64,000 bases of DNA from Candidatus Absconditabacterales bacterium (GTDB lineage Bacteria; Patescibacteriota; Gracilibacteria; Absconditabacterales; Absconditicoccaceae), in assembly GCA_025057375.1 (NCBI GenBank), contig JANWWO010000008.1, forward strand, positions 1-64,000, given 5' to 3'. Both the position numbers and the translations under genes were made by a program. Shown here in pieces: positions 6,785 to 61,350 of the stretch. Numbering within the stretch: the first letter of the stretch is position 1; the number at the start of each line of letters is the position of its first letter. The notes under the pieces were generated by a model. That model had not been told where the DNA came from and did not search any database. It was given only the letters and a program-made list of their open reading frames with translations.

Positions 6785-9700
6785 CTACTCCTTTCCAATT
6801 TTCCACCTCACCACCATGGGACCAAGCACTTCTTCCCCCTCTTGATCATACCTATCCAATTCTCAAAACTCTGACAACGTTTCTTCGCTAATCAATCATC
6901 CAAACATTTCAATCAACTCAACAACATGATTATCTCACTCAATAAAGAGAACAATTCTATCCGTCAATTGATAATCAGCAGTTTTTCTCGCTTCTTGGAT
7001 AATTCTAATCAGGTCACGAGCATATCACTCATATTCCAATTCTTTGGTCAATACTGGATCCATGACAACTACCATTCACTCGACAATCTCTCCATCAAAG
7101 GTCTCATCATGACTACGATACGCTATCTCAAACTCTTCACGTTCTAATATATGTCCATCCACAATCACCGTCCCATCTTTTCCTCGTGTAAATTCACCAT
7201 TTTTTGCTTTAGTCAAAACGTTTTTGAATGCTGATCCAAGTTTTTTACCAAGGATTTTTCCATCCGGTTTGATAATGGTTTGAACGCTCTTCGTAAGAGC
7301 AGGATCGACACTGATTATTTTGACATTGAGTTCATCTTTGACGATCTCGAGCAATTCATCGTCAAGCTTTTCTGAGATTGTTGCTGATGCAAGGGGTTGT
7401 CTTACTCTGAGATTGTGTCTTGCTCTCCGCCCCAATCACGCATTCACCAACTTAGAGACACGATCCATACTTGCCATTACGTCAGTCAAGATTTGTTTCT
7501 CATCAGCAACAGGAAATGATTGATGATGCACGCTTCCTTCACCTCACAAGGCACGATACATATGCTCAGCAAGAAATGGCATAAAAGGAGCAATAATTTT
7601 GGATAAGGTCATCAGCACAGTATACAACGTCTCATAGGCAGAGAGCTTATCCTGATCACTCTCAGATTTCCAAAATCTTCTTCTACTTCTTCTAATATAT
7701 CGATTGGTCAGATTGTCGAGAAATCACACAATCGCACGAGATGCGGTGTGCATTGTGTACTGAGAGAGATTGATATCAACAGTTTGTATCAACGAATGAA
7801 GATGAGATATTATTCGAGAATCGAGAAAACTACCCCCTCACGCCAAAGGTTCAGAACGGATTATTGATTCGTCGCTACGATCAATGGAAGGCTGCCATCC
7901 ATCAATATTTGCGTAGGTGATGAAAAAATTGAAAGCATGTCGCATAGGAAGCATGACAGTTTTGACAACCTCAAGAAATCATTCTTCTTTAACTTCGACA
8001 TCTCAGCCATACACCACAGGAGACAAAAGCGAATGCATCCTGATCGCATCTCATCCATATTGCATCAAGGCTTTTTTGGGATCAGGGAAGTTTCCGTACG
8101 ATTTGGACATTTTGCGTCCGTCATTCCCTTTCATCACTCCGGTACACAACACATTGCGATAACTTGGACGATCAAAAAGGGCAACAGCAAGAACATGCAT
8201 GACATAAAACCAAGCTCTGATCTGTCCCGTATACTCGACAATATAATCAGCAGGAAATTGTGCCTCAAACTTTTCCTTGTTCTCAAACGGATAATGGACT
8301 TGAGCATAGGGCATACTTGCACTATCCATCCACACATCAAGAACTTCTGGAATTCTCTCATATTCGTGCCCCTCAATCATCACTCTGATCTGGTCAATAC
8401 TTGGTCTATGGAGATCAAAACGAGCTTTGCGAGCCACATCAACATACTCGACCACACTTATGTCCATTGTATTTTTATTATGGATATAGTATTTTTTCTT
8501 TTCAGTATTGTAATCAAAATCAGCCAATACTTTTCTCATCATAATCAACGGATCACCATGACTACAAATCACAATTGTCTGCCCTGCATGTTTATCTATT
8601 TTTTCATACAAAAATTCCTTGACTCTTGTATACACATCTTCAATACTCTCACCACTTACTCAGTCAATAGGTTTATTATGACCTCGCTGAATTGTCGAGC
8701 AATCAAAGGGCTTGTCTTGCACAGCAAATGCTTGACATTCGGTCAAACGTTTGTCAATAATGATTTCTTTATGCAATTTGTCAGCAAGATAGCCAATAGT
8801 CTGCTGACAACGGATCAATGGCGAACAATAAATCGCATCAATATCCACCTTGCCATATTTGTCTGCCATTGCCTGAGCCTGCTTGTGACCATAATCAGTC
8901 AATCTTCCTTTTCCTTCTGCATCGCCCCAATGTTTTTCGTTGTAATCCGTACGACCATGACGCATCAAGATAATTTTGGTGAGTTGTTTGTAGGGTTTAT
9001 TTGCACGGAAGATGTCATCACGAGAGGACGCAATTCGATAGGATGGAAAGAGTGACATCGATGTGATAGTGCCCCACTCAGGCATATGAGCAAAGGTTTG
9101 AGTAATTGATCCACCATTGATACAATAGGCAAAACTTTGGATCACTTCACCATGAGAAACAACAAGCGCTGACGGATTGTGGTTTTTTCTGAGATCAGCA
9201 AGTGTCTCTCTATCACGCTCAATACTTGGTCACAACACATCAAGCAACTGTTCTTCATTACAATTTTTGAGTCCCATAGTAGTTAATCCATCCATATTTT
9301 TTATCCCAAACTTATGCATCGTTGCTTTCTTTGCTTGATGGAGTGCCTTTTTGCGTTGAAGAGAACCAAATCTTTCATCAATTCTCATAGGAATATCGAG
9401 AATCTCGCTAACGATTTCTGCTGTTTGAACTGCTCTTTTCATCGATGAGGTCAAAATCTCTGTATAAGGATGTCATTGTGCTTTCATTGTGTGTGCAAGA
9501 TCAGTAATCTGCCTGATTCCCTCTTCTGTGAGGGGACCATCATCTATTGATTTGTCGGCGAGTCCATGACGAAGAAAATGAATTTCCCCCTTTTGTAGGG
9601 ACGTATCACGAATGTTCGCTTTCCTTTTTGGAACATAAATCGGCATGGGGGTTCCCCAAAATCTCGTACGCGAAATACATCGATCAGGTGCTTGTTCAAT

Positions 9701-11062
9701 GGTTTTGGCAAAACGACCATCTTTGAAATGGGATGGATATCGGTTGATTGCTTCATTGGCTTTGAGGAGATTAGGTTTGAGTTTTTGGATATTAATAAAT
9801 CGGCTATCTTGTGCTTTGAAGATCAAGGGTGTATTGGAACGAGGACAAAACGCGACACGATGCGTAATGGATCATTTGTCAAAAAGGAGTCATTTGTCTT
9901 TGAGTTCGGTGCAGATGAGTTCGTTTGCGTCACGATAAAACACTCAGACTTTGTCCGTGATTTGGGAAGTATAACGTCACTCGTCGTCTAATGCTTCGGT
10001 TTGCGTCAATCAGTATGTTTTTCCCAAGTGGAAATCCGATTCACCAAACTCAGGAGCAATGTGCACAATACCCGTTCCATCTTCATCAGACACAAAATCA
10101 GCAGAATAAATACGATGATTGTTATCATTATGTCCGACAAAGTAGTCATATGGCGGTTTGTAGCTCAGTCACACCAATAATGATCCATGATAGGGCGATC
10201 CCACAACACTATACTGCTTCCCAGCAAAGATTTTTTCGACTCTTTTGGTGGCGACAACATAGTAGGCATCATTGTAAGAGATAGTTGAATACAAAACATC
10301 CTCACTGACCGCAAGTCACAGATTTGCCGGGATTGTTCGTGGGGTTGTGGTTCGAGCGAGAGCATACACTGCATTTTCTTTCACTATTCAATCGCCCCAA
10401 AATTTTGGATCAACTATCTCAAACTTAACCGTAATCGCAGGATCATTGATCTCATTGTACGTATCATCCATCGCTACCTCAAAACTCGAAATCGGAGTCG
10501 AAAGCGCAGTCGAAAACATCGAAACGCGCTTCCCTTTGTAGACAAGTCACTTATCCCAGAGTTGTTTGAAGACTCGCATGACTGATTCCATATAGTCATT
10601 GTCCATGGTTTTGTAACAGTTGTCATAATCCACCCAACGACCGATATTTTTGATGTAAAAAGGTCGTTCATGTGACGTTTCTTTGGTATATGTATAACAT
10701 TCGGCAATAAATGTATCCACACCTTTTTTTTCAATCTCTTTGGATGTATTCCATCCAAGTTTTGCTTGGACTTTTTGCTCAATCGGCAACCCGTGACAGT
10801 CTCGTCACCACACACGCTCAACACGTTTCCCTTTCATTGTTTGATACCTTGGAATAACGTCTTTACAAATTGATGACAAAAGTGATCCATAATGAGGTGT
10901 CCCCGTAATAAATGGCGGACCATCATAAAAACGATATGGATTGTCTGCAGGATTTTTTTCTACAGAGACTTCAAAGGCTTTGGTTTGGTGCCAATATTCC
11001 AAAACTGCTTGTTGGATAGCCCAAAAATCTGGTTTGGATGGTTGAGAAGGGAAGAATGACAT
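6785..11062 (-). CDS. ileS: Isoleucyl-tRNA synthetase with two inserted histidine-phosphatase domains
   Basis: This 1425-residue class I synthetase charges tRNA-Ile; family members are usually 900-1100 residues. The signature near residue 40 reads HYGS in 'GTPHYGSLL' (usually HYGH), KMSKS is at about 984-988, and the C-terminal domain is complete. After '[11 protein letters not shown]' (about residue 474) an extra block of roughly 400 residues precedes 'DLHRPSID' (about 883). It contains two phosphoglycerate-mutase-type domains, each with RHG (about 498 and 701), an SxxxRxxQT helix and a second His in SHG (about 635 and 835). Both catalytic sets look intact. All pieces share one frame joined by UGA. 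The upstream leader is pyrimidine-rich without a Shine-Dalgarno site. Confidence 0.95.
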
Positions 11063-27758: not shown

Positions 27759-27793
27759 GATACAGTATTCAAAGTAGATAAAGAAATATAGAA

Positions 27794-29270
<1,477 letters not shown>

Positions 29271-29290
29271 AAAATTATTGATTGTCTCTT
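29271..29290. repeat. 5' arm of the pre-16S processing stem
   Basis: This segment is the exact 20-base inverse complement of 27739-27758. It lies directly at the 16S 5' end, inside the 5S-16S spacer. Confidence 0.85.
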
Positions 29291-29348
29291 ATAAAAGACA
29301 TAGTATAGTAAAGAACAAACAACATTCTCATAAGGTGACATCAATTTA

Positions 29349-29453
29349 CTTTCCCACCCCTAAAGGGGGCAGTATCATCAACTATTGTACGTTTTACTTC
29401 TGAGTTCGGAATGGGATCAGGTAGGTCCATACAATACATAGATATCACCATAA
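29349..29453 (-). rRNA. 5S ribosomal RNA
   Basis: On the minus strand the segment reads TGGTGATATC at its 5' end, then CCTGATCCCATTCCGAACTCAG and GATGATACTGCCCCC at the expected spacings. The ends CCCTTTAGGGGTGGG form the last helix. It lies between 23S (upstream) and 16S (downstream), not at the end of the operon. Confidence 0.93.
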
Positions 29454-29477
29454 AAGAATGGCATATACCAAAAGAAA

Positions 29478-29491
29478 CATATATATTTTTG
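29478..29491. repeat. 3' arm of the pre-23S processing stem
   Basis: The 14 bases CATATATATTTTTG are exactly inverse-complementary to 32404-32417 before the 23S 5' end, and the neighbouring bases (ACAATAAT against ATTATTGT) extend the pairing. Confidence 0.8.
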
Positions 29492-29499
29492 AACAATAA

Positions 29500-32396
<2,897 letters not shown>

Positions 32397-32403
32397 TTAT
32401 TGT

Positions 32404-33704: not shown

Positions 33705-34175
33705 TTATTCACACTGATAAAGCCAACATGTTTTTGGCACAATACGAAAACAAAATGAATGAGAAGGATATACAAGATAAAGAAACACCCCAGGACTTAT
33801 AAGAGAACAAGAATGTGTCAGTGGTGATAGTGTTCGTTCTAACTTAGACCCAACCGATCAACTCAATTGAAAATATCATCAATGTGACGAACTCCGAACA
33901 CTCTCATACACTCACGAAGCAAAAAAACGACGACGCATCGATCATCCAGTTCCATCGAGGAGAAATTGTAGTCATGTAAATATATGACCAGACAGAGAAT
34001 TGGTCATACTCGCTTGTCTTGCAGCATCATGATATCGGGAAAGAAAAGAAGAAACATCTTGCCTGACCCTAGTGGCTGCTATTCTTGATCGATCAAGTGA
34101 AACTCAAATTGTCGCAATTGTTGCAATAATAACAATCACAACAACTATCTCAATCAAGGTAAATCCTGCCTTCAT
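33705..34175 (-). CDS. Type IV prepilin / pseudopilin (GspH-like)
   Basis: The 156-residue protein starts 'MKAGFTLIEIVVVIVIIA', the canonical prepilin leader with Gly before FTLIE and Glu at +5. Residues 35-60 ('RVRQDVSSFLSRYHDAA') form the helical spine. The globular domain is rich in UGA glycines ('LDGTGGSMRRR'). Two or more cysteines near the end ('THSCSLI', 'KTCWLYQC') may form disulfides. Short and GspH/FimT-like, it is probably a minor pilin. It precedes the PilM-like gene. Confidence 0.88.
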
Positions 34176-34201
34176 CAAAATGATAAAAATAAAAAATAAT
34201 C

Positions 34202-34474
34202 CTATTCTCTGACATATCAAAAAAACATCGCTCAGCAATACAGACTCACCAAGAAAAACAATAGACCACAATTCTCAATACAACAACTCAGGTTGTACAA
34301 TATCTTATCATGATTGTTGTAATACGCAACTGCAACAAACAACATCATTACTAGTATAGAACAAAAAAAAACTATTGCAAGCATAAATGACCCGATGTCA
34401 GATCCTTGACTATGGGTAAATAATGAGAATACAAAAAAACACAAGACGATGCTTGCGTACCAATCTGTTAACAA
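34202..34474 (-). CDS. Small three-helix membrane protein
   Basis: The 90-residue frame has hydrophobic segments around 'ASIVLCFFVFSLF', 'FMLAIVFFCSILVMMLF' and 'LLFFLVSLYC', and one late UGA pair before TAG. No ATG lies at the start; a TTG at 34474, 5 bases past the stop of the upstream regulator gene, is the best candidate. Function unknown. Confidence 0.45.
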
Positions 34475-37237: not shown

Positions 37238-39592
37238 ATGAAAAAAATATGTCTGACATGGATCGTAAACAGCGTTATAATAGGGTTTTTTTTACTTAGT
37301 CACACACCCGTCTGAGCACAAAACCCACCATCATGAAACTGACCATCCATTGGTGCAATTGATACAAGCATTGATACAAGCATTATCACGCAAATACAGG
37401 CAATGCATACAGCCCTCAAAATTCCTGATACATGACTCTGAGCACTCAATGGCAACGGACCAAAAGTAGGAGACGGATGCTGAAGTATCATTATAGCACG
37501 AAATAATGATGTTCGTACAAACAAAACGAATCCTCATGCTCAAAAATCAGCATATGAAAACTGTCTTAATGAACTTATTGCACGTCTAGGACAAACAGAT
37601 GATAAAGGACAAACTATTACCTGTTGACGTGCTCAACAATTTTTGCCACTCCAAAAATCGTCATCACCAAACCAAAAACCACTCTGTTGTATCAATGGTA
37701 CAATTGTATGAGCAAACTGACAACCACTCCCCCCTGCAGGAGAAACATGAGATCTTCCTCAAGGAAGATGTCTGGCCACAAGTACGCAAGATCCCTGTCT
37801 TGCCATATCAAATCTTTTGTGATCACTACACAAAGCAGCAAGTACACTTGTTTGCGGTATTCCAAAATCGTTTCTCAACCAAGAGTCTGCACAAAAAAAT
37901 GCAGATGCAAATCAAAAGAAAAAATTTACCGATCTTGTTACGAACGGTAATACATTTGTTACAGCGCAAGCAACACATATACAAGAACAACTCACTGCAC
38001 TCAATTCTTTAGAAGAATTTACACAATGCACATGAGCAGAGAGTCAAAAAAACACTATTGAATCTCTTCTGAAAAAACTTCCATCCGTACGAACACTATT
38101 ATCGAGTAGCGATTTTTCATGATGAAATAAAGCGTATGCCACAACATGTCAAAACATACCAGCTCCATTTAGTTTATCACTAAATAATTGTATACAAGAA
38201 GAAGACAAGCCATGAGATATTATTCTTTTATTTAACGCAGTCACTAATGTTCGTCAGGGACTCACTTCAGATGCGTTTGTCCTTTGATCACCGCTACGAA
38301 TACTCAAAACACCTCTTCCAAATCCTAATAATTTTGTCTCTATTCTCAAATGATCACGACAAGATATGTATAAACAAGCACAAGAAGATGTAATAAAAAC
38401 ACCACAAAACACTCTTGTCCCGATCACACAAGCAGCAAAAATAATCAATACGATTGAACAAGACATTCGTTCATATCCAAGCAATCTTCGTCGCTTTCTC
38501 GAACTCTGAGCAGATATTCATAAAGCATATTGCGACGCACAACTGCAATATAGCGTCGAAGGTAGCGAATGATTTACGAAAGGAGGATGATCATGTCGTG
38601 ATGCAATAGGACAATATTTTGCAAAGACGTCAACAGTAGATGAGACGATTGATTATCGACAAAAAAACCTCGATGATGTAAAAGCTCGTCTTGCGAACAC
38701 AGCTGCTACATACGTTTCAAGAAATCAAAAAAAAGACATAACAATTCCAGAGATCACAACATGCACGATGGAAGAACTAGAAAAACACTTTTGATGAAAA
38801 GATAAAGTCACTGCATCAATCAAAGCAGAACTTGCAGGTCTGATCCAAGAATGTCAAATGTATGAAACCCTTATCAAAATTGCTAAAGAAAAACAAACAG
38901 CAGCAACACAAAAATCATCCAATCAAACTCCTTGAACACAATCTCCTTCACAAACTACAGAAACACAAACATCTCCACAAACATCTCAAACGCAACAAAC
39001 AAACAGTCAACAGACAGGACAAACACCACAACAAAAAACTGATACAGAACTTCTCAGAGAAGTAGAAGATCAAATGATCCAACGATGTCAAGAACAATCA
39101 TGTACAGAAATTACCCCCCTAGGCATGTGCTGTACCGAAGGACAACGCTGAGCAAATAATGGAATATGTTATCCATCAGCTCTGATTGCTCCCAATGGCG
39201 AGTTTTGTGCTGCAGGAGTGACAAAGGAGGGAACATGTGTCGCCAATCACTGGTGAGATATGGGAATCCAATGCTCACCCCAACAACTTCTCATTGGAGC
39301 ATGTTCATTTAAAGCATATGATGCACTACAAATTAGAGCATCTAACAAAGATCCAAGTCCCAAAGTATTTATCCAAGATATCATCCTCTCCCTTACATCA
39401 TTTATTGGTGTCGTCGCAACACTCTCTCTGATGCGATCATGATTCAAAGCAGTGATGTCGTGATATGATAATTGATCAGAATATCAAACAGCTATTAGAA
39501 ATGCCTGATACTCCATTATATGATTATTGCTTGCAGCGTTTTCATATGCAATCGTCAGACTCATCCAATACGTTGCTATGGCATGATGATAA
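37238..39592 (+). CDS. Large Cys-rich secreted protein with two C-terminal membrane helices
   Basis: The 784-residue frame holds about 35 UGA glycines. It has a signal peptide ('MKKICLTWIVNSVIIGFFLL') and a long extracytoplasmic part with many cysteines, including clusters 'CCTEGQRGAN' and 'FCAAGVTKEGTC'. A Gln/Thr/Ser-rich linker ('TETQTSPQTSQTQQTN') separates two halves. The last 75 residues form two membrane helices ('ILSLTSFIGVVATLSLM' and 'LLLAAFSYAIVRLI') joined by a Gly-rich turn, an arrangement like VirB2/TrbC-type pilins. A strong promoter and terminator bracket it, so it is a single-gene unit. Family not recognised; a surface or pilus-associated role is inference. Confidence 0.82.
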
Positions 39593-43061: not shown

Positions 43062-43351
43062 AAAAAAAACCAGAACTAAAACATTCCTCATAAAAATACG
43101 AACACATGAAAAAAATCAACCACATAAACACGGCGGATTGTACGACATAATAAGATTTTTTGTACAGATTGCAAGAACCTCACAAACAAAATATATAATC
43201 ATCTGACAAAAGATGAGAAAAAAAACGCCATAAGTCAACAAAAAGCAAGAGGAATACCAAAAAAGAGAAAATAATATTTCTCTGATCATCTTGCATTTTT
43301 TTTAAAAAATACTATAGTCCAAGATAATATTTATTTTTCACACCATTTGTG
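43062..43351. other. Intergenic region
   Basis: AT-rich spacer between divergent genes; it should hold promoters for both the methyltransferase and the SLH-like gene. A TATAAT-like box was not clearly resolved. Confidence 0.3.
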
Positions 43352-43990
43352 ATGATATTACTCCTCACACTCATCTTGACACCATTTACATTCATTCATG
43401 CAAACACCAGTGATATCCAACATCTTCTTGACTCTGTAGACTTAACAGTCTGAGAACTTGCTCCTACAAGGATCTTGCTTCCAGCAACTTGATCAACAGA
43501 AAAAACTATTCGTCTAGACGAAACTATTGAACGGATGCACACTCGTTGATTCACGATACACAATACTATTGCATGATACAATCCCGATGGAATAATCACA
43601 AGAGAAGCAATGGCAAGATTTGTGGTCACCTTTATGCTTGGACAAAAAAGACAGCGAAATCATAATGTTAACTGCTGATTTAGTGATATCTATACAGCAA
43701 ATCCTGACCTTATACCATCAATTATTACTGCCTGTTCAATGAATATTATGAGATGAGCAAATGGGAGATTTTCTCCAAAAGCATCTATGACAAAAGCTGA
43801 AGTAGTTGCAACACTTATGAGAATGATCAGGAATGATATTGGCACCAATGTGACCCCTTGGTGGCTCAATTATTATAATACAGCGAGAGCATATTGAATT
43901 ACCACCGACTCTCAAGAAAACATGCATAACCAAGCCACCAGATGAGAAACGGCGATCATGCTGAGAAGAGCATTCCAATTTATTGATTAA
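43352..43990 (+). CDS. SLH-like domain protein, secreted
   Basis: The 212-residue protein has a signal peptide ('MILLLTLILTPFTFIHA') and repeats of SLH character: 'GIITREAMARFVVTFM' and 'ASMTKAEVVATLMRMI' match the [T/S]R.E....L.....G pattern, with 'GFSDIYTANPDLIPSI' between them. The same arrangement ('GITREQLAAFASRYY') occurs in the S-layer protein at 57727. It probably attaches to the cell envelope or co-assembles with the S-layer. Two cysteines could pair. UGA glycines are frequent. Confidence 0.8.
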
Positions 43991-44107
43991 GCAATTTTTT
44001 CATCAAAACATCATACCTCCTATGATGGTATACGTTCCCATACTACCCTTCTCTTCGAAGGGGATTATATATATAAAAAGCAACTATCATTGCGTAGTGT
44101 TTTGGGA

Positions 44108-47100
44108 ATGTTTACCATTTTTTTGTTTATAATGTTTTTTCGATTACAACCATACCAACAACAGAACGTATCACGGCGTTTTCTATGAGTAGTCATAGTG
44201 GCAATAACAATGCGATTACCGATTTTTTCTGACACGCACGCTTCATGATGATTACTCATCAGCGAAATATATGCTGACGGAAATGATGAATGGATAGAAC
44301 TAATCAATACAGGTCCAAACACCTTTTCATGACTTATTTCACTTTCCTGAGCAAAAGCAACACCCGTCATCCTTCCCCTTACGCTTGCACCACACCAAAC
44401 ACTCATCATAGGAGATGCTATTCCATGAATCATCGATCCATCATGCGTATGAACCCTTGGTCTTGCATTGCAAATCAACGACAATAGTGCTTTTACCGTC
44501 CAGCTCCGGAGTTGATCAATACTTCTTGATACATTTATTGCACCAAATACACCAATCAAACGTGCAAGTATCCAACGTCAATGGTCATGAAGCACACTCA
44601 CAACACAAGTGTCTGATCAAACTAATAGCTCCAATACTCACGTTCATATTGATGCATCTCCCTGCCTATCACCACTCACGACCTCAATCACCCCAACTGA
44701 TCGATCATCCTTGCTTCCATCTGATCCTCTCCAATGACTCATATTTTCTGAGTTTTTGTGGGATGGATCAGCAGAATATATCGAAATCCTCAACCAAGGA
44801 CCCACCGATTTCTCATGACCAATCACCATTCTGTGAATCGATATTGACCCTAGAGTCTATACAGTAACAATCCCTGCATTCCAAACCCTGGTTATCGCAC
44901 ATTCATCACTCATGACATGATTTTCTTCCTGATGATACGAATGAATACGCTACCAAAACGACACACTTCGACAACGTATTCGTGACGACCAAAGACTAAC
45001 TGCAATTCTTTATATATGATCAACACCAACGACAGGCACAATACGTGATATGATATCAATTCCCAGATCAACAATGCTAACATTTGACAATCAAACAAGA
45101 TCATGGGAAAAAATTCGTACTGACACAGGATGGATGCGAGATATTGGAAATGACGCAAGAATTACTGGCCGAGTACAAAATCCAGCTCCACACAAAGCAA
45201 ATCCATGATTCGTACGATCAGTAACAGGTCTGATCATTTTCCCTCGCACAACAACCCCTCCTCCACTTCTATGTGATCAAAGTGCAATGATTGAAGAAAT
45301 CCATCGTGACGATAGTTATGTGTCGAACTATGTCGACATTGTCATTACAACATGATTTGTATGATCTCTTAGTCTCTCGGGGTGATGAGTATGGGCGACA
45401 TGGACAGGGACATTTAGTGCAGGACAACATCTCCTTGTTTCTCAGTCATCACTCATCCATCCTTTTATACACAACGTTGCATCAATAGACTTCTCACCAT
45501 GAACAATTCTCTATCTATACCGCAACAATACACTTATTGATAACATTATCATTTGATCATGACAAGGAACTGGACAATCATTGTATGCATGATCACTAGA
45601 ATGTGGAAGAAGCATTGACACATTATGACCTTCAACACCTTTTATGCCCCAATCACTCTTCCCACTCAATCCAAAAACAGAAGTAACTGTTATCACATCA
45701 CACCCATCACCCCCACCAAATAATCCACCAAGTGGCTGATCCTGTCCCCAATGTCCAATATGCCAAACCAATGAAAATACGTGAAAGATAACAGATAGTT
45801 GACCATGTCTTACTGGTGTCAATATCGTGTCTACTTTGTCTACATCTCCGATTTTTATCAATGCAATTTATCAAACAGGAGGTATTCATCGTATAAGTCT
45901 CACCAATGGTTCATCGAACAATCAGACATTGTGATGATATAGTTTATATGTATGATCATTTCCTCTGCATACACGAATGACATGAATACTCACTGCCTCT
46001 CATTCTCTTACCCATGACCTCCCAGCTTCTCCACGCTGATGATGTTATCACCTTTTTTATCTAGGCGTTATGCGTTCGACCTTATGCTTTGATCCACAGA
46101 TTCATGGCAATTGAATTAGCTGTCACGCACCACAACTATCTCATTGATGACAAAATAATACGTGATGAACAATCATCATGTCATGACTTCGTCTCATCCA
46201 TGTTGACTATGCGTATCCTGCGGGTCAACCCCAAGCTATTACTCTCAGCCTTCATGATATGGCAGACGCTGTCCATCTGTGACAATATCGTCTTCGTGTC
46301 AACCAAAACACAACACGTCTCACTATCACTTGAGCAACCATCTCCCCATGATCAACAATGATTATTTGGAAAAATTTTAACTTTCCAAGAGTCAATCCGA
46401 CAACAATCCATCTCCTTCATCTTACAGGAGGAAATGAACTCCTGATTGATTCTTATTTCTATGACCCCTCATCGTCCTCACCACTCCCATCTCTCACAGG
46501 GGCAACCAATCCATCACTTTCATGATCACAACAACCAGCATTATCATGAAACATGCTCTGATCAGGAAATGAATCAACACAACCGCTCAATCCCGATACG
46601 TGGGATATTCGTATTCAAACCATAGACTATGCCTATCCCTCTTGACAACCACAAAGCATTACACTAATACTTCATACAGGTGCTGCAGCACTTCCCCTTT
46701 CACAATTTCGTCTGCGTGTCAATCAAAATCAAACGCGTCTCACGATTACAGGCGCAACACTATTCCTCAACCAACCATTGACCATATGGAGATCTTTTAA
46801 TTTTCCCAGGACAACACCAACAACCGTCCATCTCCTTTACCTATCATGATCACAAGAAATTCCTCTTACGAGCTATTTTTATGATCCAAGTGGCGATATC
46901 AATGAAGAAGAAGATGACAATATTATGACATGAGCAATCATAGATCCAAGACAGTTGATTGTTCGTTTTGAAAACATCATCTGGGATACACCAGCATGAG
47001 AAAACCAACATGTCACTCTCCGTCTTTTTACATGAGCAGATCGTTTATCTTTGTCTCGTTTGCGTCTTCGTGTCAATGACAATAAAACACGTACGACACT

Positions 47101-48631
47101 ATGATCTGATGATCTCATTCTCTGATCATCAATAACTGTGACAAAAAATTTTCGTTTCCCAAAAACACAAGCTACGACAGTTCATCTCCTCTATGTGTCC
47201 TGATCAAATGAAGTACTCCTCGATACATATATGTATCAACCACAAAAAAATGAAGAAACAGAACCAGAACACGAGTCAGTCGATCTGTCTTCTCTCGTAT
47301 TTCGTATCAAAGAGATTGTCTATGATCCGCCTGGTTGAGATACGGGCAACGAAGTCGTCATCATTGAATATCTTCAAGGGCCAAGCCCTCTCCAAACCAA
47401 AAATTTCCGTCTCCGTATCAATTGATCAACCAAAACATTGGAAGGAGATTTTGTGCGTGGGGACAATCGCTTCCAAAAAACATTTGGGTTCCCAAACACA
47501 AAAAAAACCTGTATTGAGCTGATACATACACAATCAGACAAAATCTTTGATACCTTATGTTATGATCCTGAGAAAGATAGTAATGAAGAAATGACAATCT
47601 CATGAACAATTGAGCTTCGTATTACCTCGCTTGTTTATGATGTACCCCCTCGCACTGATCAACGCATTACGATTCTCTACGCTGGATCAAATCCTACATT
47701 ATCTTTGACTCCTTATTCGCTCCTGATCAATGGAAGAAGACGTCTATTGCGCAACTTTTGATCATTACAACAAGGTAAAGAAACAGAACTCATAGGAAAT
47801 TTCTGATTTCTCAAAACCAAAGACACCTGTGTTTCTCTTGCACATGGAGAAACAATATTTGATACACGATGTTACTCACCTGCTGCTGATCAAGAAGAGA
47901 AAAAGAATGCTTCTGACCTCAGTGTCAGTCCTACTGCCCTCTTAACGATCGATGCTGTCATGCCAAATCCTCAAGGTAAAGATGACAATGAGCAGATTCA
48001 TCTTCGTCTACTCTCGTGAACATTGCCCATCAATCTGTTCGACTATTTTCTTCTGACAGATAAGGGCAAAAGAATTACAATTCGCGGTACGATGACAGGA
48101 GAAACAATACATATCATATGATCATTTGGTTTGCCAAATACAGCAAGCTGTCTTACTCTGTTCACAAAAAAAACACCCACCATCCCTATGGCTCGTCTGT
48201 GCTATCCTGACCCAAAAGACACTATCCTGTATGATGGGACACAGGCGATGCTCTTCTCAACAACAAAAACATCTCCCTATCGTCTAACCTATAGCAAAGG
48301 AATAATTTGCTTATACATCAACAACAAAAAAACTGAATGTTTTGATAAACTACTTGAAGATTATCATCGTCTTCGTTTGGCGACACAATACATCAATGAG
48401 CTAGAATCAGAGCTCATCTACACCTTCCCTACACTGCGATTCTATTCACGTTTGCATCCAATGGCAGTCCTCTACCGCGATCATGTCTGATTGATCGACC
48501 AAAAAATATTTACTGTAACGAGAAGATGAGTATCTCTTCCGGTTTCATCGTTTGGTGACCATTATGATGTCCACTATGGACAACGCATGGAAAAAATTAT
48601 CGCCGATGGTATCATGAAATTATTTGAATAG
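44108..48631 (+). CDS. Giant surface protein with tandem lamin-tail domains
   Basis: The 1507-residue frame is continuous only with UGA=Gly, which occurs dozens of times. After an N-terminal hydrophobic segment comes 'LISEIYADGNDEWIELIN', a textbook lamin-tail domain (LTD) start, repeated as 'LIFSEFLWDGSAEYIEILN', then 'MIEEIHRDDSYVSNYVDIV' and further copies to residue ~1350. Several copies share the sub-pattern 'LRVNQNQTRLTITG' and 'FNFPRTTPTTVHLL'. C-terminal to these, a helical part ('EDYHRLRLATQYINELE') ends at TAG 48629-48631. Each LTD folds as an Ig-like beta-sandwich, so the protein is a long rod on the surface, perhaps in attachment. Confidence 0.88.
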
Positions 48632-48770
48632 GAGATTCTTATCAGACTTGCGTGTTACTCTGCTAAAAGACACGAACAACTTGCGTTGGTATAAACTTTG
48701 GTGTAAATGAATCATTCAGGCTTATTGTTGGTGATGTTAAAAAGTTTAGGTTCACCACTTAATCTATATA
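48632..48770. other. Short spacer after the lamin-tail gene
   Basis: No gene or clear terminator was seen between the giant gene and the transposase remnant. Confidence 0.3.
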
Positions 48771-49368
48771 TTATACTTTTCTTTCTTTTTCTTTTATACT
48801 TGACCAAATATCAATAATCTCTAATTTAATATCATCTATTATTTTTGCTTCACATGTCTCATAAAGATCTGTACATCTTCCATTCAATACTTTTTTTGCT
48901 CACTCAGGCTGTTTATAATTCTTTCCATATGGTTTTTGATAAGTAGCACGCTGCCTTCTTCACTAACCACCACGTCTGATGATAATGTAATTTTTGCATC
49001 CCATACTTTTTATTGATACCTTTATTTACATCACGTATATCTATTGTTTTTTTTTCTTTCAGTTTTTTCTCGCATTTCAATTCCCTCAGATTCTCGTCTC
49101 TTTTTTTCATCTGTCAATTGTCTTCATGTATAATGTGCCTTATAACATCACTTTTCATCAGATATCTTTGGTATATGTTCTTCACCAGTTTTTGATAAAA
49201 CGTTAAGTATTTTTTAGTTTCAGCTTTAGTTTCTGCAATATTTTTACCTCACATATACACACACATTATCATTATTCTCGTACGTTCCAAACTGTTCTTC
49301 GCACATGGAAGTATTTTTTTTAGCTCTTGCACTTTTTCATTACGTGCGGGTATGAGTCTTTTTGACAT
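48771..49368 (-). pseudogene. IS630-like transposase N-terminal remnant
   Basis: From ATG 49368 the frame runs 151 residues. It has an N-terminal helix-turn-helix ('RTRIMIMCVYMGGKNIAE') and a winged-helix motif 'VNKGINKKYGMQKLHYHQTW', which is the DNA-binding arrangement of IS630/Tc1-type transposases. TAA at 48913 ends it, yet coding-like sequence ('YKQPEGAKKVLNG') continues in another frame to TAA at 48771. The DDE catalytic domain is absent. The element is therefore truncated and frameshifted. Terminal inverted repeats were not identified. Confidence 0.5.
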
Positions 49369-49905
49369 AGAATAGTATAGTATAAAATAAATTATGAACA
49401 TACGAGACTAGTAATATTCCTATATGCAAGTACAATGTACTATAAACTCTATCACTTGTATACATGACTATGTATTTTTTTTCATACACCCAATCACTTT
49501 TGTATGCTTTTTACGTAATTTTTTTATATTCTACAAAAACATTATCCTACTTTTCTTTTAATTTTACTACTTTTTTCTAGTAGTATTACATCATACAATA
49601 TGATATTACCACAATATAGCCATAAAGTGCATATGTTAATTTGCTCTTACCTTAGCAATTAATCATTTCATTATTACCAAAAAAACTTGTGAAAAACTAT
49701 TTTTCTCAATAGTCCTGTATCAAACACACATTTGATATAAACAAAAAACGAAAATATACTATATAATTACGATCTACGTCGACTGAGGTCATAATCTCTT
49801 TTTTTTTCATATATACTAATAAAAAAACAAGGTATATACTAGTTCATCTCTTCTTTATAATATCATGATGTTTTTCACAGACATATTTTTTTGATATTTT
49901 TTTAA
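49369..49905. other. Very AT-rich gene-less stretch
   Basis: Homopolymer-rich sequence without open frames on either strand. Nothing structured was recognised. Confidence 0.5.
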
Positions 49906-50220
49906 TTATGCATTTTTTTTCACATTCATGATAAAAAACGTCATAATACAAAAATAATAAAATAAGGACAAAAGAAGTGTTTTCATATCTTTTCACAAGA
50001 ATAAAAAAAACACCACTATTATTACTATTTTTTTATACATTATCATATAACCAAAAAAATAAAAAATTATACACAAAAAATCACTAGCAATTTGAAAAAA
50101 AAATACTATAGTGATTATGTATTTGCGTATTGTCTTTTTTTGACAATTATTGTCTATTGTTTGTCTCGATTTATGTTTGTGTTTTGTATGATCACCTTTC
50201 TCATGAGGGGTAGTAGTCAT
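49906..50220 (-). CDS. Possible small membrane protein
   Basis: The 104-residue frame with one UGA starts 'MTTTPHEKGDHTKHKHKS', a polar N-terminus. Three hydrophobic segments follow ('YIITIVFFFQIASDFLC', 'IVIIVVFFLFL', 'LLLSLFYYFCIMTFFIM'). The AT-rich composition makes random hydrophobic frames likely, so this is uncertain. It is divergent from the helicase gene. Confidence 0.3.
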
Positions 50221-54207: not shown

Positions 54208-54229
54208 ATTTTTAATTTTTTTGGCTTGT

Positions 54230-55708
54230 ATGCAAACAGTGTATCTCAAATGATATTATGGTTATCGCAACCGATGAGATGAGTTGCTGTTTTTTGGTGT
54301 TGTGGATTGGTTATGGAGAAATTATGAGATTGATCGTTTGTATATTGAAGTATCTGATGTTGCGTGGATGGAAACATGGTGTTCTCGTCATCCTCATCTT
54401 TTGGTACCCGAACGTCGTGCTCGTATTATTTTTGTTGCCAAACATCTTGCATACAAAATAGATACAGAATCGATGCTGATGGTGTTTGGTTGAGGAGAAG
54501 TGTTGACTGATGAAATTAGCTTTGAAGATGATCAGCCATCATCTCCGTCCGGTATTGATGAAAAAAATATTTCTCACAATCACTTGACCCTTGAGACAAT
54601 TCGTCAAGGAGAACCCAAGGCTGTTCGTATAGGAAAATCACTCTTTTCTCGTTTTACCTCAGTTATCAAATCGATCTGAGCATCTCTGTTTCCCCGTGTG
54701 GGATACAATTATTTGTTTCGTTATCGATGACATATTCGTGATGGTCGTTTTGTTTTGATTTGATGAATTACTGCTCCTCATAAGCCAGCGATGTTTGCGT
54801 TATATTCCTATATGTTGCCCAAAGCACAGCGTATTGTTATGAGAGAGCAGACAAGTGTCGATATTGTGTCTAGATATTCAAAAAATGTCGAACTCTATCG
54901 TGATTTTGCCTATGACGTGCTTGATAGTGTTCATATTACTTCTCCTGTTACAGGATTGTATTGTGTTCTTAATATTCATCCCAAGTCATTAACGCCTCAG
55001 ACATTGAGTATGATTCAGGACATTGTTGATCGTTATGCTCACTGTGAGTGGTACTGGTTTGCTGCAGATTATGCTTGTGATATAGAAGTTACTCATACTA
55101 TAATAAGCAAATTTTCATTTCTTCGTATTTGGGATTGGACACAACATACAGTTGAAGAAACGCTTGGATTGATTGCTGGTGCAGAGTATGTCGTAGCGTC
55201 TAGGCTACACATTCTTCTTCCTGCTCAGTATTATAATCGTTCTTTCTATCCTCTTACCTACGCATCCAAAATAACCAAACTTATCATGATTCATCAAGCT
55301 GTGCTTTTTGTTTCGTATGATATTCTCTTTTCTCTTGCCCATACGCAATGGGACCAATGTCTTCTTTCTCTCCGTCTCAATGACAAAGCAAAAATGGTCA
55401 TTTGTCATGGTGATGATGAATCCAAACATCCTGTCTCACCTTTTGTGAATCAATGGTTGATTGCAAAGACAAAAGATGAGTATCAATCCAAATTTTTCTG
55501 ATTGTTAAGACAGTGGGGGGATTGTTGTCAAAAAGTGTCAATTCTTGTCAATGATCGTCATGATGTTTTTCTGCCTCTTGTAACCTATTGTCAGAGTGTA
55601 GGTATCTTGAAGAATGTATGGGTAGCAGGGAGTGATCACGATCGTGATTGGCGACATTCGCAATTCCCGTCAGTTCAAGTACATCGTTGTGAATGGCAAC
55701 GTTCATAA
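54230..55708 (+). CDS. Polysaccharide pyruvyl transferase-like protein
   Basis: The 492-residue protein starts 'YLKGYYGYRNRGDELLFFG', which matches the GyyG..N.GDE N-terminal motif of the pyruvyl transferase family (CsaB, WcaK). Later landmarks are 'LMVFGGGEVLTDE', 'GRFVLIGGITAPHK', 'LNIHPKSLTPQTL', 'GAEYVVASRLHILLPA' (the conserved SxRLH motif) and a C-terminal extension of about 70 residues after a UGA codon. CsaB pyruvylates the wall polymer that anchors SLH domains, which fits the nearby SLH-like S-layer. That link is inference. Confidence 0.82.
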
Positions 55709-56577: not shown

Positions 56578-57177
56578 ATGATCAAACGTGGTGTGACTTT
56601 GCTGGAGTTGTTGGTGGTGATTGTGGTTGTGGGGATTTTGTTCACAATGATGTTTCGTGTGTATGGGACTATTGTAACCAATACCAATCGTGTCAATCAG
56701 ATTGTACTGATGCAAACAGCAAAACAAGATCTTTATCTTCATCTGACGCTTTTTTTGCAAGGGGCGCGTTTTGATCCTGAGCGTCATTCGAAATCACTTG
56801 TTTCATGATATAGTCAGGAACTTTTTTTACGTGATTGACAGGATCGTCGTTTTCAATTGCTTCTTGGTGCAAGACAGTGACTAGATCTTTGACCTTGCGA
56901 ATCAAAAAACTGTCTTGTCTGGTATGATGACGGGTTGAGGATTCCGTTGCTTGATGGGAGTTTAGTTTTTCTGCATCAGCCATCATGGTATATGATTCCT
57001 CAATATCCTCATTTGTCATGAGTGGCTTTGGTAGACGTTGGTCAGTCACAGCGGCCTGATACAGATAGTATTTTTGCTCCATGAGTATGGCTCTTTGCGA
57101 CGATGTATCCTACCAAATCATTAGGTGCTGTTGCGTGAGTCCCATCTATTCCTATTCAGTTTTTTTTCAATTTATAG
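56578..57177 (+). CDS. Type IV prepilin-like protein (PilW/PilJ type)
   Basis: The 199-residue protein starts 'MIKRGVTLLELLVVIVVVGI', a prepilin leader with Gly before VTLLE and Glu at +5 followed by a membrane helix. A long helical and beta region follows ('NRVNQIVLMQTAKQDLYL'), with a Cys pair in 'GPCESKNCLVWYDDG' that may close a disulfide loop. It lies 27 bases after trmB and probably forms part of the type IV pilus tip complex. Several UGA glycines. Confidence 0.85.
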
Positions 57178-57726: not shown

Positions 57727-60700
57727 ATGACATGAAACAAACTTCTAAGTCTTATGTCAGTTGTTGTTCTTTTGGCTCCGTCCGTAATGCCTGTCGTGAC
57801 TAATGCACAAGCAGGTGTTGATCCTGAATGGATTAAAGCGTACGAGTTTATGAGAGACAATGGATTGACATCAGCTACTACCTATGAAAGATTTGCTCCT
57901 CTTAATGGTATCACAAGAGAACAACTTGCTGCTTTTGCATCAAGATATTACAAAAATGTTCTCAAAAAAACTGAAAAAGATGGAACTGCTAGATGTTCAT
58001 TTACTGATGCTCAATTATTTGATCCTACATTGGTAACTGCTATTACTGAAGCGTGTGAATTTGGTCTTATGGGTGTAGGTATCACTGCCTTCAATCCAAA
58101 AGGACAAGTAACGAGAGGTGAAGTATTGACAGTTATGTCAAGAATGCTTTTCGGAAACAAACACAATGGTGGAACTCCTTTCTGGGCAAACCATGAAACT
58201 GCGTTGTTTAATGCTGGAATTGTCAATATAAGACATCCACAAGCAAACGCAAATGGTCCTATGAATAGACTCTTCACTGCGTTGATGATGATGAGAGCGG
58301 CTAATGCAGATGTTGGTGAAGATATTGATGAAGACATTGATTGTACAGATCCTATGATGGCACTCTTTTGTGAAGAAGATGAGACAGATACAGGAACTGG
58401 AGGAACTGGGACAGTAGAAACTCCAGGAACAAATACAGGAGCTGTGTATGATGACACAAGTAGACCAGTATCAAATGGAAATGTAACGTTGACTGCTACA
58501 TCAAAACTTCCAAATGGTGCATCAATTCCAAGTAAATGAGTTGTGACATTTGCTAATATGCAACTTGCTGCTCAAGGTGATGATGTTACCGTGTATGGAA
58601 TCAAGGTAGGAAGAATTGGACTTGGTCAAAGATCAGAAATCAGAAGAGTGTTCTTCGAAATCGATGGTAGAAGAATTTCTTCATACTCTGCTCTCAATCC
58701 AGACAATACATCTGAAATCACATTTAATCAACCTATTGTTCTCAAAGCTGGTTCAAATGCTCGCATGGATTTTGTTGTCGAAATAGAATCTAATAATCCT
58801 GGTGGTGAACATGCATTTGAAGTTCTTGCTATTGATACAAATGCAAAAGGTGTTGTATGAGTCGGACTCAAAACTAACACATATAGAACTACTACCTACC
58901 AAACAGTAGAGGTAAAATTTGAACGTCTCTCTACAACTGGATCATATTCAGCTGGAGAAACTACAAATCTCAAATTTGGTCAATTTAGAATGACAAATCA
59001 ATCTTCATCAAATGAAGATAAAGATATCGTGGTCAAAGCCATTACATTTAGAAATGATGGTGATGGTGATGCATCAAGCAATCTTAAGAACATCAAATTG
59101 CTTCAAAATGGTAAAGTTGTTTCAAAAGAAGTTTTCCACGATGGAAGAAATATGACTATCCTTCTTGACAACTACCTCCTCAAAGCAAACCAAACACCAG
59201 TTTTTGAAATCACTGCTGATGTTGCATATGTAGATAATGCAGATGGTGATACATACAGATTTAGAGTCCAAAGAACTCAAGATATTATTGCAAACGAACT
59301 TGCTACTGACTTTAGAGCTTCGATTAAATTTGATGGAACAAATGGGGGTGATCTTTTCCCAGTAAAAGTGAGAGGATGAGACATTATGTTGAGAAACCTT
59401 GAAAACTTCAACAGATCTATCACTGCAGTCTTCGGTGCTAAACAAGTTCCTCTTGCAAGATGAGAAATCCAAGCAAGACAATCAGTTATGCTCGAAAATG
59501 CACAAAATGTCTCTATCAAAGTTACTACATCTACATGACTTGTACTTACTGGTAAAGCACAAATGGAATCTGTTATCCAAAGAATTGAACTCAAAGTCGG
59601 TTCTAGATCAATTGTATGAGTATTGAAAAATGGTGGTCTTGTAGATTTTGATGGTACATTCACTATCCAGGCTCTTCAGCCTATCGAAGTACTTGTTGAT
59701 ATTAGATCTACTGCTGGTTCTGCATTTAGAAACGCTGTTATTGAACTTCCAAATGGTTTCGGATTGTCATCATTCCAAATTGCTGAATATACATCCAATG
59801 GAAATAATGTTGCAACTGCTGGACTCGTAGGTGCTTTGGCTTCTGCTAGAGTGACATTGCAAGATGCTGGTTTGTCTATGGCAAGAACTGATGGATTCCC
59901 AGTTTCAAGAAATGTTGTTGATGGTGCGACAAATGTCGAAATCTTTAGAGCTACTCTTACAAATACATCTGACCTTTCTGTCAATATTACACAATTGGTA
60001 TTTGCTAAATTGTCTTGAAGTACATACAATGGTGATATTGTTGCGACAATTGCTGGTTCTGGATTTTCTAGATCATTGACTGTCAAAAAAGGTGATCAAA
60101 CTCTTGATTTCAATAGTCTCAACATCAATGTTGCAAAAGGATCTCCTGTCACAATCTCTATGAGAGCTGATTTTGAAGCAGGTGTAAGTAATACTGGAAC
60201 TGTAGCATTTAGATTGGCAAACTTCCTCGGACAAGATGTCAATGGTACTGTCTACAATGGAGATAATGCTTCTAATATGCTTTCATTCCAATCTGCTACT
60301 GTCAATGTTATCAATTCTGCTGCTCGTGCATCAGTCAATACACATGCAAACAATAGAGCAAACTTCGTTGCAAATTCTACACAACAAGTAACTCTTGGTG
60401 CATTTGATATTTCCGCATCACAAGGGCAAGTGAGATTGAGAGATTTGGTTGTTATCGGATCTGATGGTAGTGGAACAGTGTATACTGGTTCAAGACTTGA
60501 TGATTTGATTTCTAACGTATCTCTTGTAAGAGCTGATGGAACTGTGGTTGCACAAGGAGCAAGAATTTCTCTTACAGGAAATGCTGCATCTACGATTACA
60601 TGATTCTCTGGTTCTCTTGTTCCATGATTCAGATTTGAAAATCTCCAAAATGTTGCAATTGCTGATGGTACAACTGAAACATTCCAAATCAGAGCTACAG

Positions 60701-61350
60701 TAAATAGCATCAATACTGGTGCCAATACAAATAGAGGTCTCCAAATGCATATTCCTGGTGCTATTATCGTCAACGGTAAAGCAATGACTGGTATTGTTCT
60801 CGAACAATCAAATGGTACAGCGATTCCAGACTTCTCTGCACCATTTACACAAAATCAATTGGCAATTGGTAGAAGAAATACTGTTGTACAAGGATATCCA
60901 GTTGTTGCAAAAGCTACATACACACCAAATGGTGTCGAATCATTGAGAATGAATGTAACTGCAACAAATGGAAGAATTTTGATCCAAGGACTCAATCTTC
61001 AATCAACTATTAGTTCTGGATCTCTTAGTGGTACAATCTATGTGAACTCTATCAATGCTAATAATGTAGTATACACTGGACTTTTGAATGGATCAGTTTC
61101 TTTCACAAGTGGATTTGTTGCGAATACAACACTCGGTTCTGAAGAAGGATATTCACTCAATGCATGAACAACTGCTACATTCATTCTTGTCTTTGATACT
61201 GCGCTTGGTAAAGATCAAACAAGAACTGTCAGAATTACTGACCTTACATACGAAGATGTTATTGGTGGACAACCTTCAAGTGTTAATATTACAATCAATG
61301 GTAAAGAAAACGTTGGAGAACTCCCAGTAACTGAAACATTCACTAACTAG
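57727..61350 (+). CDS. S-layer-type surface protein
   Basis: The 1207-residue protein has a signal peptide ('LLSLMSVVVLLAPSVMP' ending 'TNAQA'), the third codon being UGA. An N-terminal SLH-like pair ('GITREQLAAFASRYYK', 'GQVTRGEVLTVMSRMLFG') is followed by an acidic Cys loop ('DIDCTDPMMALFCEED'). About 950 residues of beta-rich Ig-like repeats come next, very rich in Asn, Thr, Ser, Gly and Val and lacking cysteine. Codon use differs from its neighbours: Arg is almost always AGA and UGA glycine is sparse. This suggests very high expression. It probably forms the outer lattice. Confidence 0.88.

Follow-up and report, generated by a model that had tools for sequence, protein, structure and literature searches.

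According to PMC6085458, Mans et al. 2004 had already remarked on bacterial proteins that carry lamin tail domains (LTDs) in tandem. LTDs also form part of secreted nucleases (PMC6085458, PMC4486849), and DNA-degradation loci encode a nuclease protein with an LTD as well (PMC8289736). Tandem LTDs as well as LTD-nuclease fusions are already known in bacteria. ExeM from Shewanella oneidensis (PMC6085458) is an exported, LTD-bearing protein which is tied to extracellular DNA breakdown. When the LTD of ExeM was absent, the extracellular DNase activity was nearly normal in cells and slower in vitro (PMC6085458). A 1,049-aa protein of Ca. Izemoplasmatales (PMC8289736) is large and combines nucleic-acid-related domains, a nuclease and an LTD within a DNA-use locus.

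The gene described here lies in a window of 64,000 nucleotides, which is the whole stretch of DNA that was analyzed. Its product resembles the known tandem-LTD proteins in its predicted secretion and in carrying several LTDs per chain. However, it belongs to recoded (TGA=Gly) genomes, contains two LTD subtypes in a fixed order and ends in a family-specific domain, termed T. In ExeM a single LTD is combined with OB-like regions and an EEP nuclease, whereas in the SR1 orthologues the nuclease that accompanies the LTD arrays is of the SNase type; the copy in the window has none. Compared by description, the Ca. Izemoplasmatales protein belongs to another lineage and is flanked by transporters and nucleosidases instead of comEC, csaB and SLH genes. 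To the known kinds the SR1 version adds the two LTD subtypes in fixed order, the T domain, the variable nuclease and the comEC/csaB/SLH setting.

Under genetic code table 25 (TGA=Gly) positions 44108-48631 of the forward strand form a single open frame of 1507 aa, in agreement with the first-pass annotation, which had described a 1507-residue rod of repeated LTDs. The gene starts with ATG at 44108, with TTG at 44090 as a possible alternative, and ends at 48631. A reading of the same stretch with table 11 yielded no long frame and 65 in-frame TGA codons and was abandoned for table 25. Table 25 suits the organism, since the relatives obtained in the protein search were SR1/Absconditabacteria and Gracilibacteria records, several of them titled 'candidate division SR1 bacterium'. 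The gene, its parts and its neighbours are as follows.

43349..43990 (+): small exported SLH protein, 213 aa; PF00395 22.3 bits (over cut-off); 118 bp upstream of the LTD gene
44108..48631 (+): tandem-LTD gene; 1507 aa, genetic code 25 (TGA=Gly)
44108..44245 (+): export-signal-like N-terminal segment, ~aa 1-46; RR, then hydrophobic FLGVVIVAITM, then THASG
44237..44641 (+): unit 1, type A, canonical LTD; A profile; PF00932 E 6e-5 alone
44720..45223 (+): unit 2, type A LTD; A profile E 1e-29; PF00932 E 0.07
45269..45667 (+): unit 3, type A LTD; A profile E 7e-11
45839..46111 (+): unit 4 (u4), doubtful, LTD-like; PF00932 E 0.08
46175..46477 (+): unit 5, type B, diverged LTD; B profile
46595..46897 (+): unit 6, type B; B profile; 61% identity to unit 5
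46949..47257 (+): unit 7, type B; B profile; 48% identity to unit 6
47285..47581 (+): unit 8, type B; B profile; lamin-tail fold when modelled alone
47603..47893 (+): unit 9, type B; B profile
47927..48247 (+): unit 10, last type B; B profile; two Cys invariant in 16 orthologues
48248..48628 (+): T, C-terminal domain; Cys-bearing beta hairpin, then helices (low-confidence model); two invariant Cys
54221..55708 (+): csaB-like polysaccharide pyruvyl transferase; PF04230 E 5e-13; in relatives commonly adjoins the LTD gene
57727..61350 (+): surface-layer-like protein, 1207 aa; N-terminus resembles the SLH protein, SLH below cut-off

The strongest hydrophobic window of the 1507-aa protein lies at aa 25. 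Iterated profiles over the orthologues placed the type A units at aa 49-185, 211-367 and 395-485, and the type B units at aa 695-787, 834-927, 953-1045, 1066-1154, 1170-1258 and 1279-1366. Unit 2 shares 43% identity with unit 1 over 54 aa. The weakly LTD-like unit 4 (aa ~578-668) matched the family B profile with an E value of ~2e-4 in a three-sequence test, in which the reversed control gave 0.2. In total, three A and six B units are secure, and with the doubtful unit 4 there are perhaps ten. The repetition of LTD units is thereby borne out, and their number is higher than the 'several' given earlier. The start of the first unit, LLISEIYADGNDEWIELIN, is present as reported before. The shared sub-patterns N...TRLTITG and FNFPR..PTTVHLL were likewise found, in unit 5 as NQNTTRLTITG...FNFPRVNPTTIHLL and in unit 6 as NQNQTRLTITG...FNFPRTTPTTVHLL, while unit 7 carries a looser form. 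Units 5, 6 and 7 show a protein identity of 41-61% (E 2e-27 to 2e-43) and form a well-supported clade (0.99) within the family's B units; at the DNA level unit 5 still matches unit 6 with 70% identity over 217 bp. These units reflect a duplication in the lineage of the window. The six B units are the highest number seen, tied with the orthologue L040.

The whole protein matched PF00932 with an E value of 2.1e-16 and 60.7 bits and passed the curated Pfam cut-off of 34.3 bits. Unit 1 alone reached 23.8 bits, which is below this cut-off. Units 3 and 6-10 of the window, searched singly against Pfam, gave no LTD match, as would be expected if the later repeats had an unrelated fold and the LTDs were limited to the first units. 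Such a restriction is nevertheless very improbable. In the orthologues L028, L037, L034, L029, L050, L051, L021, L048, L040 and L024 the best PF00932 stretches fall directly on B units, for example at aa 772-864 of L050 (74 bits for the whole protein). The A and B profiles aligned with each other at an E value of 1.5e-5 in a single-pair test and a probability of 80%. A structural model comprising three units and T had a mean pLDDT of 65, with T at about 40 (unreliable), and its fold search listed FnIII/Ig matches of a generic kind but no lamin. Following these generic matches a single B unit, unit 8, was modelled alone with AlphaFold, with 17 other B units (pLDDT 89, pTM 0.80). In the comparison of this model with the PDB, ranks 1-6 were all occupied by the tails of lamin A/C, B1 and B2 with Z scores of 7.8-8.1; the next unrelated chain had a Z score of 7.7, so that the lamin scores lie close to background and their margin is narrow. 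The structural result is nevertheless in line with that from the sequences. The superposition covered 82-90 residues with an rmsd of 2.7-3.1 and 6-10% identity. The B units thus share their fold with the Ig-like tail domains of nuclear lamins; in contrast to these, the SR1 protein has no coiled-coil rod and occurs in an unrelated setting. Because of the Pfam matches of the orthologues, the A-B profile alignment and the structural matches of unit 8, the B units were counted as LTDs. The diverged B units are LTD homologues. Profile scan and structure prediction had been proposed as checks by the first-pass annotation; in the Pfam scan of the orthologues and in the model of unit 8 the later units come out as LTDs, and the case of first units being LTDs followed by an unrelated fold failed on the orthologue Pfam matches and the model.

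In the protein search 38 of the 99 genomes gave matches, and 37 of these belong to the same GTDB family as the window. From 33 loci 34 frames were collected, mostly of 800-1610 aa. The LTD gene is a single-copy orthologue in most genomes of this family, whose records are named candidate division SR1. As judged from the iterated profiles, the order of the domains is fixed as two to three A units, one to six B units and T. Orthologues exist and their unit number varies between lineages; the first-pass annotation had proposed to check related genomes for both. T comprises about 130-160 aa with two invariant Cys. It occurs once per genome in 32 of the 49 family genomes, the window genome included; in genome G006 the match is split in two. 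Outside this family, the T profile had no match in the 50 genomes of the class that were searched. T was thus found only in the GTDB family of the window among the genomes searched. The T and A profiles gave nothing significant against PDB sequences, NCBIfam offered no family for the 1507-aa protein, and the viral contigs searched contained no relatives. LTDs themselves are widespread in the class, whose other families also commonly have frames of 500-2000 aa with several LTDs. In a tree of the last B unit plus T the window sits on a long branch, and its placement is unsure.

A staphylococcal-nuclease (SNase)-like domain is placed between B units in 12 orthologues. The motifs DGDT, R..G.DAPE and a later D.Y.R-like motif (second Arg region) are conserved in almost all copies, L028 carrying a GTDAPE variant. 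Since these active-site motifs are conserved, the domain is likely an active enzyme in the orthologues. The window protein showed neither a PF00565 match nor a DGD[TS] or G.DAPE motif, and no SNase was found in the window genome, which is 97% complete. Close pairs of orthologues differ in this respect: L045 possesses the domain and L036 does not, and the same holds for L043 compared with L031 and L032. On the tree of the last B unit plus T the distribution requires about six changes, at least four of which are forced by well-supported branches. The presence of the SNase module is consequently patchy, and it was gained or lost several times. HHH_3 was found in one of 29 orthologues. An SNase domain and several LTDs were also observed in one long frame, with no TGA recoding, in other families of the class (for example G053 C18:86159-89320 and G065 C3:743374-747405).

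Across the loci the LTD gene is flanked by a murG-like glycosyltransferase gene at 20 loci, by a csaB-like pyruvyl transferase gene at 17, by SLH-group genes at 17 and by comEC at 15, these counts being lower bounds because of contig ends. The T/LTD gene lies less than 10 kb from comEC in 14 of the 17 genomes which have both on contigs long enough to judge; these genomes share inherited synteny and are not independent. The comEC-csaB-SLH block stays beside the LTD gene also in cases of an inverted LTD gene. The three genomes in which comEC is not this close include the window genome, with comEC on another contig (C19). The window genome possesses both a ComEC gene and an HHH_3 (ComEA-type) gene; of the common neighbours it keeps only csaB and SLH genes near the LTD gene, with csaB and an SLH-group gene downstream; the protein encoded at 57727..61350 belongs to the same SLH neighbour group as in the relatives. 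The small upstream SLH gene (43349-43990) is not a neighbour common to the relatives. This gene bears out the earlier remark that an SLH-like protein is encoded beside the LTD gene. The remark had been extended to surface anchoring. An envelope connection is plausible because an SLH gene is next door and genomes of the family commonly have csaB and SLH genes close to the LTD gene. The anchoring itself is circumstantial, as the LTD protein contains no SLH domain, LPXTG motif or C-terminal membrane segment and Pfam finds LTDs only.

We tentatively favour, somewhat below even odds, an envelope-associated platform that would handle DNA at the cell surface and that would be nuclease-less in the window. 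The SNase domain of the orthologues with its active-site motifs supports this proposal, as does comEC within 10 kb in most of the genomes judged. The csaB, murG and SLH neighbours, the ComEC and HHH_3 genes of the window genome and the published LTDs of extracellular nucleases and DNA-degradation loci speak for it too. The net charge per 100 aa is -6.3 for the A units and -1.8 for the B units, and only T is basic; a positively charged DNA-binding array was thus not seen. Acidic to neutral LTD units are not expected of a DNA-binding array and count against the proposal. The dispensability of the LTD of ExeM in cells is a further point against it. The window genome itself has no SNase and no nearby comEC, so the link to DNA rests on the relatives. 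A shared neighbourhood can also persist without shared function.

The first-pass annotation had suggested a long extracellular stalk, perhaps for contact with host bacteria. As such a stalk or adhesin, the tandem beta-sandwich domains would form a rod which reaches or grips the host bacterium. Nine to ten Ig-like units in a rod behind an export-signal-like N-terminus would suit this role, and unit copy number differs between lineages as in surface fibres. Among the Foldseek matches of the three-unit model were FnIII arrays as well as SiiE and other bacterial adhesins, which share the fold only, and in Vampirococcus a part in host attachment was proposed for very large surface proteins (PMC8080830). 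However, an adhesive tip or anchoring motif was not found in the LTD protein, and an adhesin calls neither for a nuclease inside the rod nor for comEC beside the gene, as they occur in orthologues. A host-contact stalk is less probable than the DNA-handling platform, and the SNase in 12 orthologues together with the closeness of comEC points to DNA handling at least as much as to such a stalk. Slightly less probable again is a structural or assembly part of the SLH/S-layer envelope, which would bind wall polymer or the S-layer and stiffen or organize it with no specific tie to DNA. In Gram-positive bacteria, SLH domains bind a pyruvylated polymer that CsaB-type enzymes produce (PMC6030368, PMC10435577), which agrees with the recurrent csaB, murG, glycosyltransferase and SLH genes, and it is the SLH and csaB neighbours, not comEC, that the window genome retains. 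This role leaves both the SNase of the orthologues and their comEC neighbour unexplained.

For the surface platform that handles DNA we infer export, a surface location, and attachment via T or the SLH/pyruvylated-polymer envelope. The protein would be exported through Sec and would sit in or on this envelope, where the LTD array would serve as a beta-sandwich platform and T would be a putative attachment or assembly module. The platform may bind or position extracellular DNA, which the built-in nuclease of many relatives would also cut. DNA or its fragments could then enter the ComEC route, which would plausibly supply a host-dependent cell with nucleotides; ComEC was proposed for the import of host DNA in Vampirococcus, which belongs to the same wider group (PMC8080830). 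In the lineage of the window, which lacks the nuclease and has amplified B units, a binding or scaffold role only would be left. A complete SR1-specific surface machine, in which the LTD array and T capture host or environmental DNA, an optional nuclease cuts it and ComEC receives it through the pyruvylated-polymer/SLH envelope, is doubtful. If it existed, it would be a nucleotide-scavenging device of host-dependent bacteria, and the window would represent its nuclease-less, array-expanded form. For the way in which host-dependent CPR bacteria acquire nucleotides, this single-copy putative surface protein with its LTD arrays, optional nuclease and comEC/csaB/SLH neighbourhood is a concrete candidate. 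The patchy nuclease and the varying LTD number within one orthologous gene offer a natural comparison for the function of bacterial LTDs.

Further features were observed elsewhere in the window. Pseudopilin-like N-termini (GFTLIE and GVTLLE) are encoded at 33705-34286 (-) and 56578-57177 (+), suggesting putative type IV pilus parts near the LTD region. A 784-aa exported protein (37238-39592, +) has a C-terminus like a TrbC/VirB2-type pilin, below cut-off. The sign of the GC skew flips near 49-50 kb (region ~48000-50000), between the LTD gene and a DEAD-box helicase gene, which could mark an origin, a terminus or an assembly join. At 6785-11062 (-) an unusual isoleucyl-tRNA synthetase (TIGR00392, 730 bits) is split by a histidine-phosphatase domain; this insert is a complete PF00300 (E 3e-47) at aa 697-853, between two synthetase stretches. 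A complete rRNA operon (16S, 5S, 23S) was found at 27789-32397 (-). Since the 5S gene falls between 23S and 16S by coordinates, the transcription order is 23S-5S-16S.
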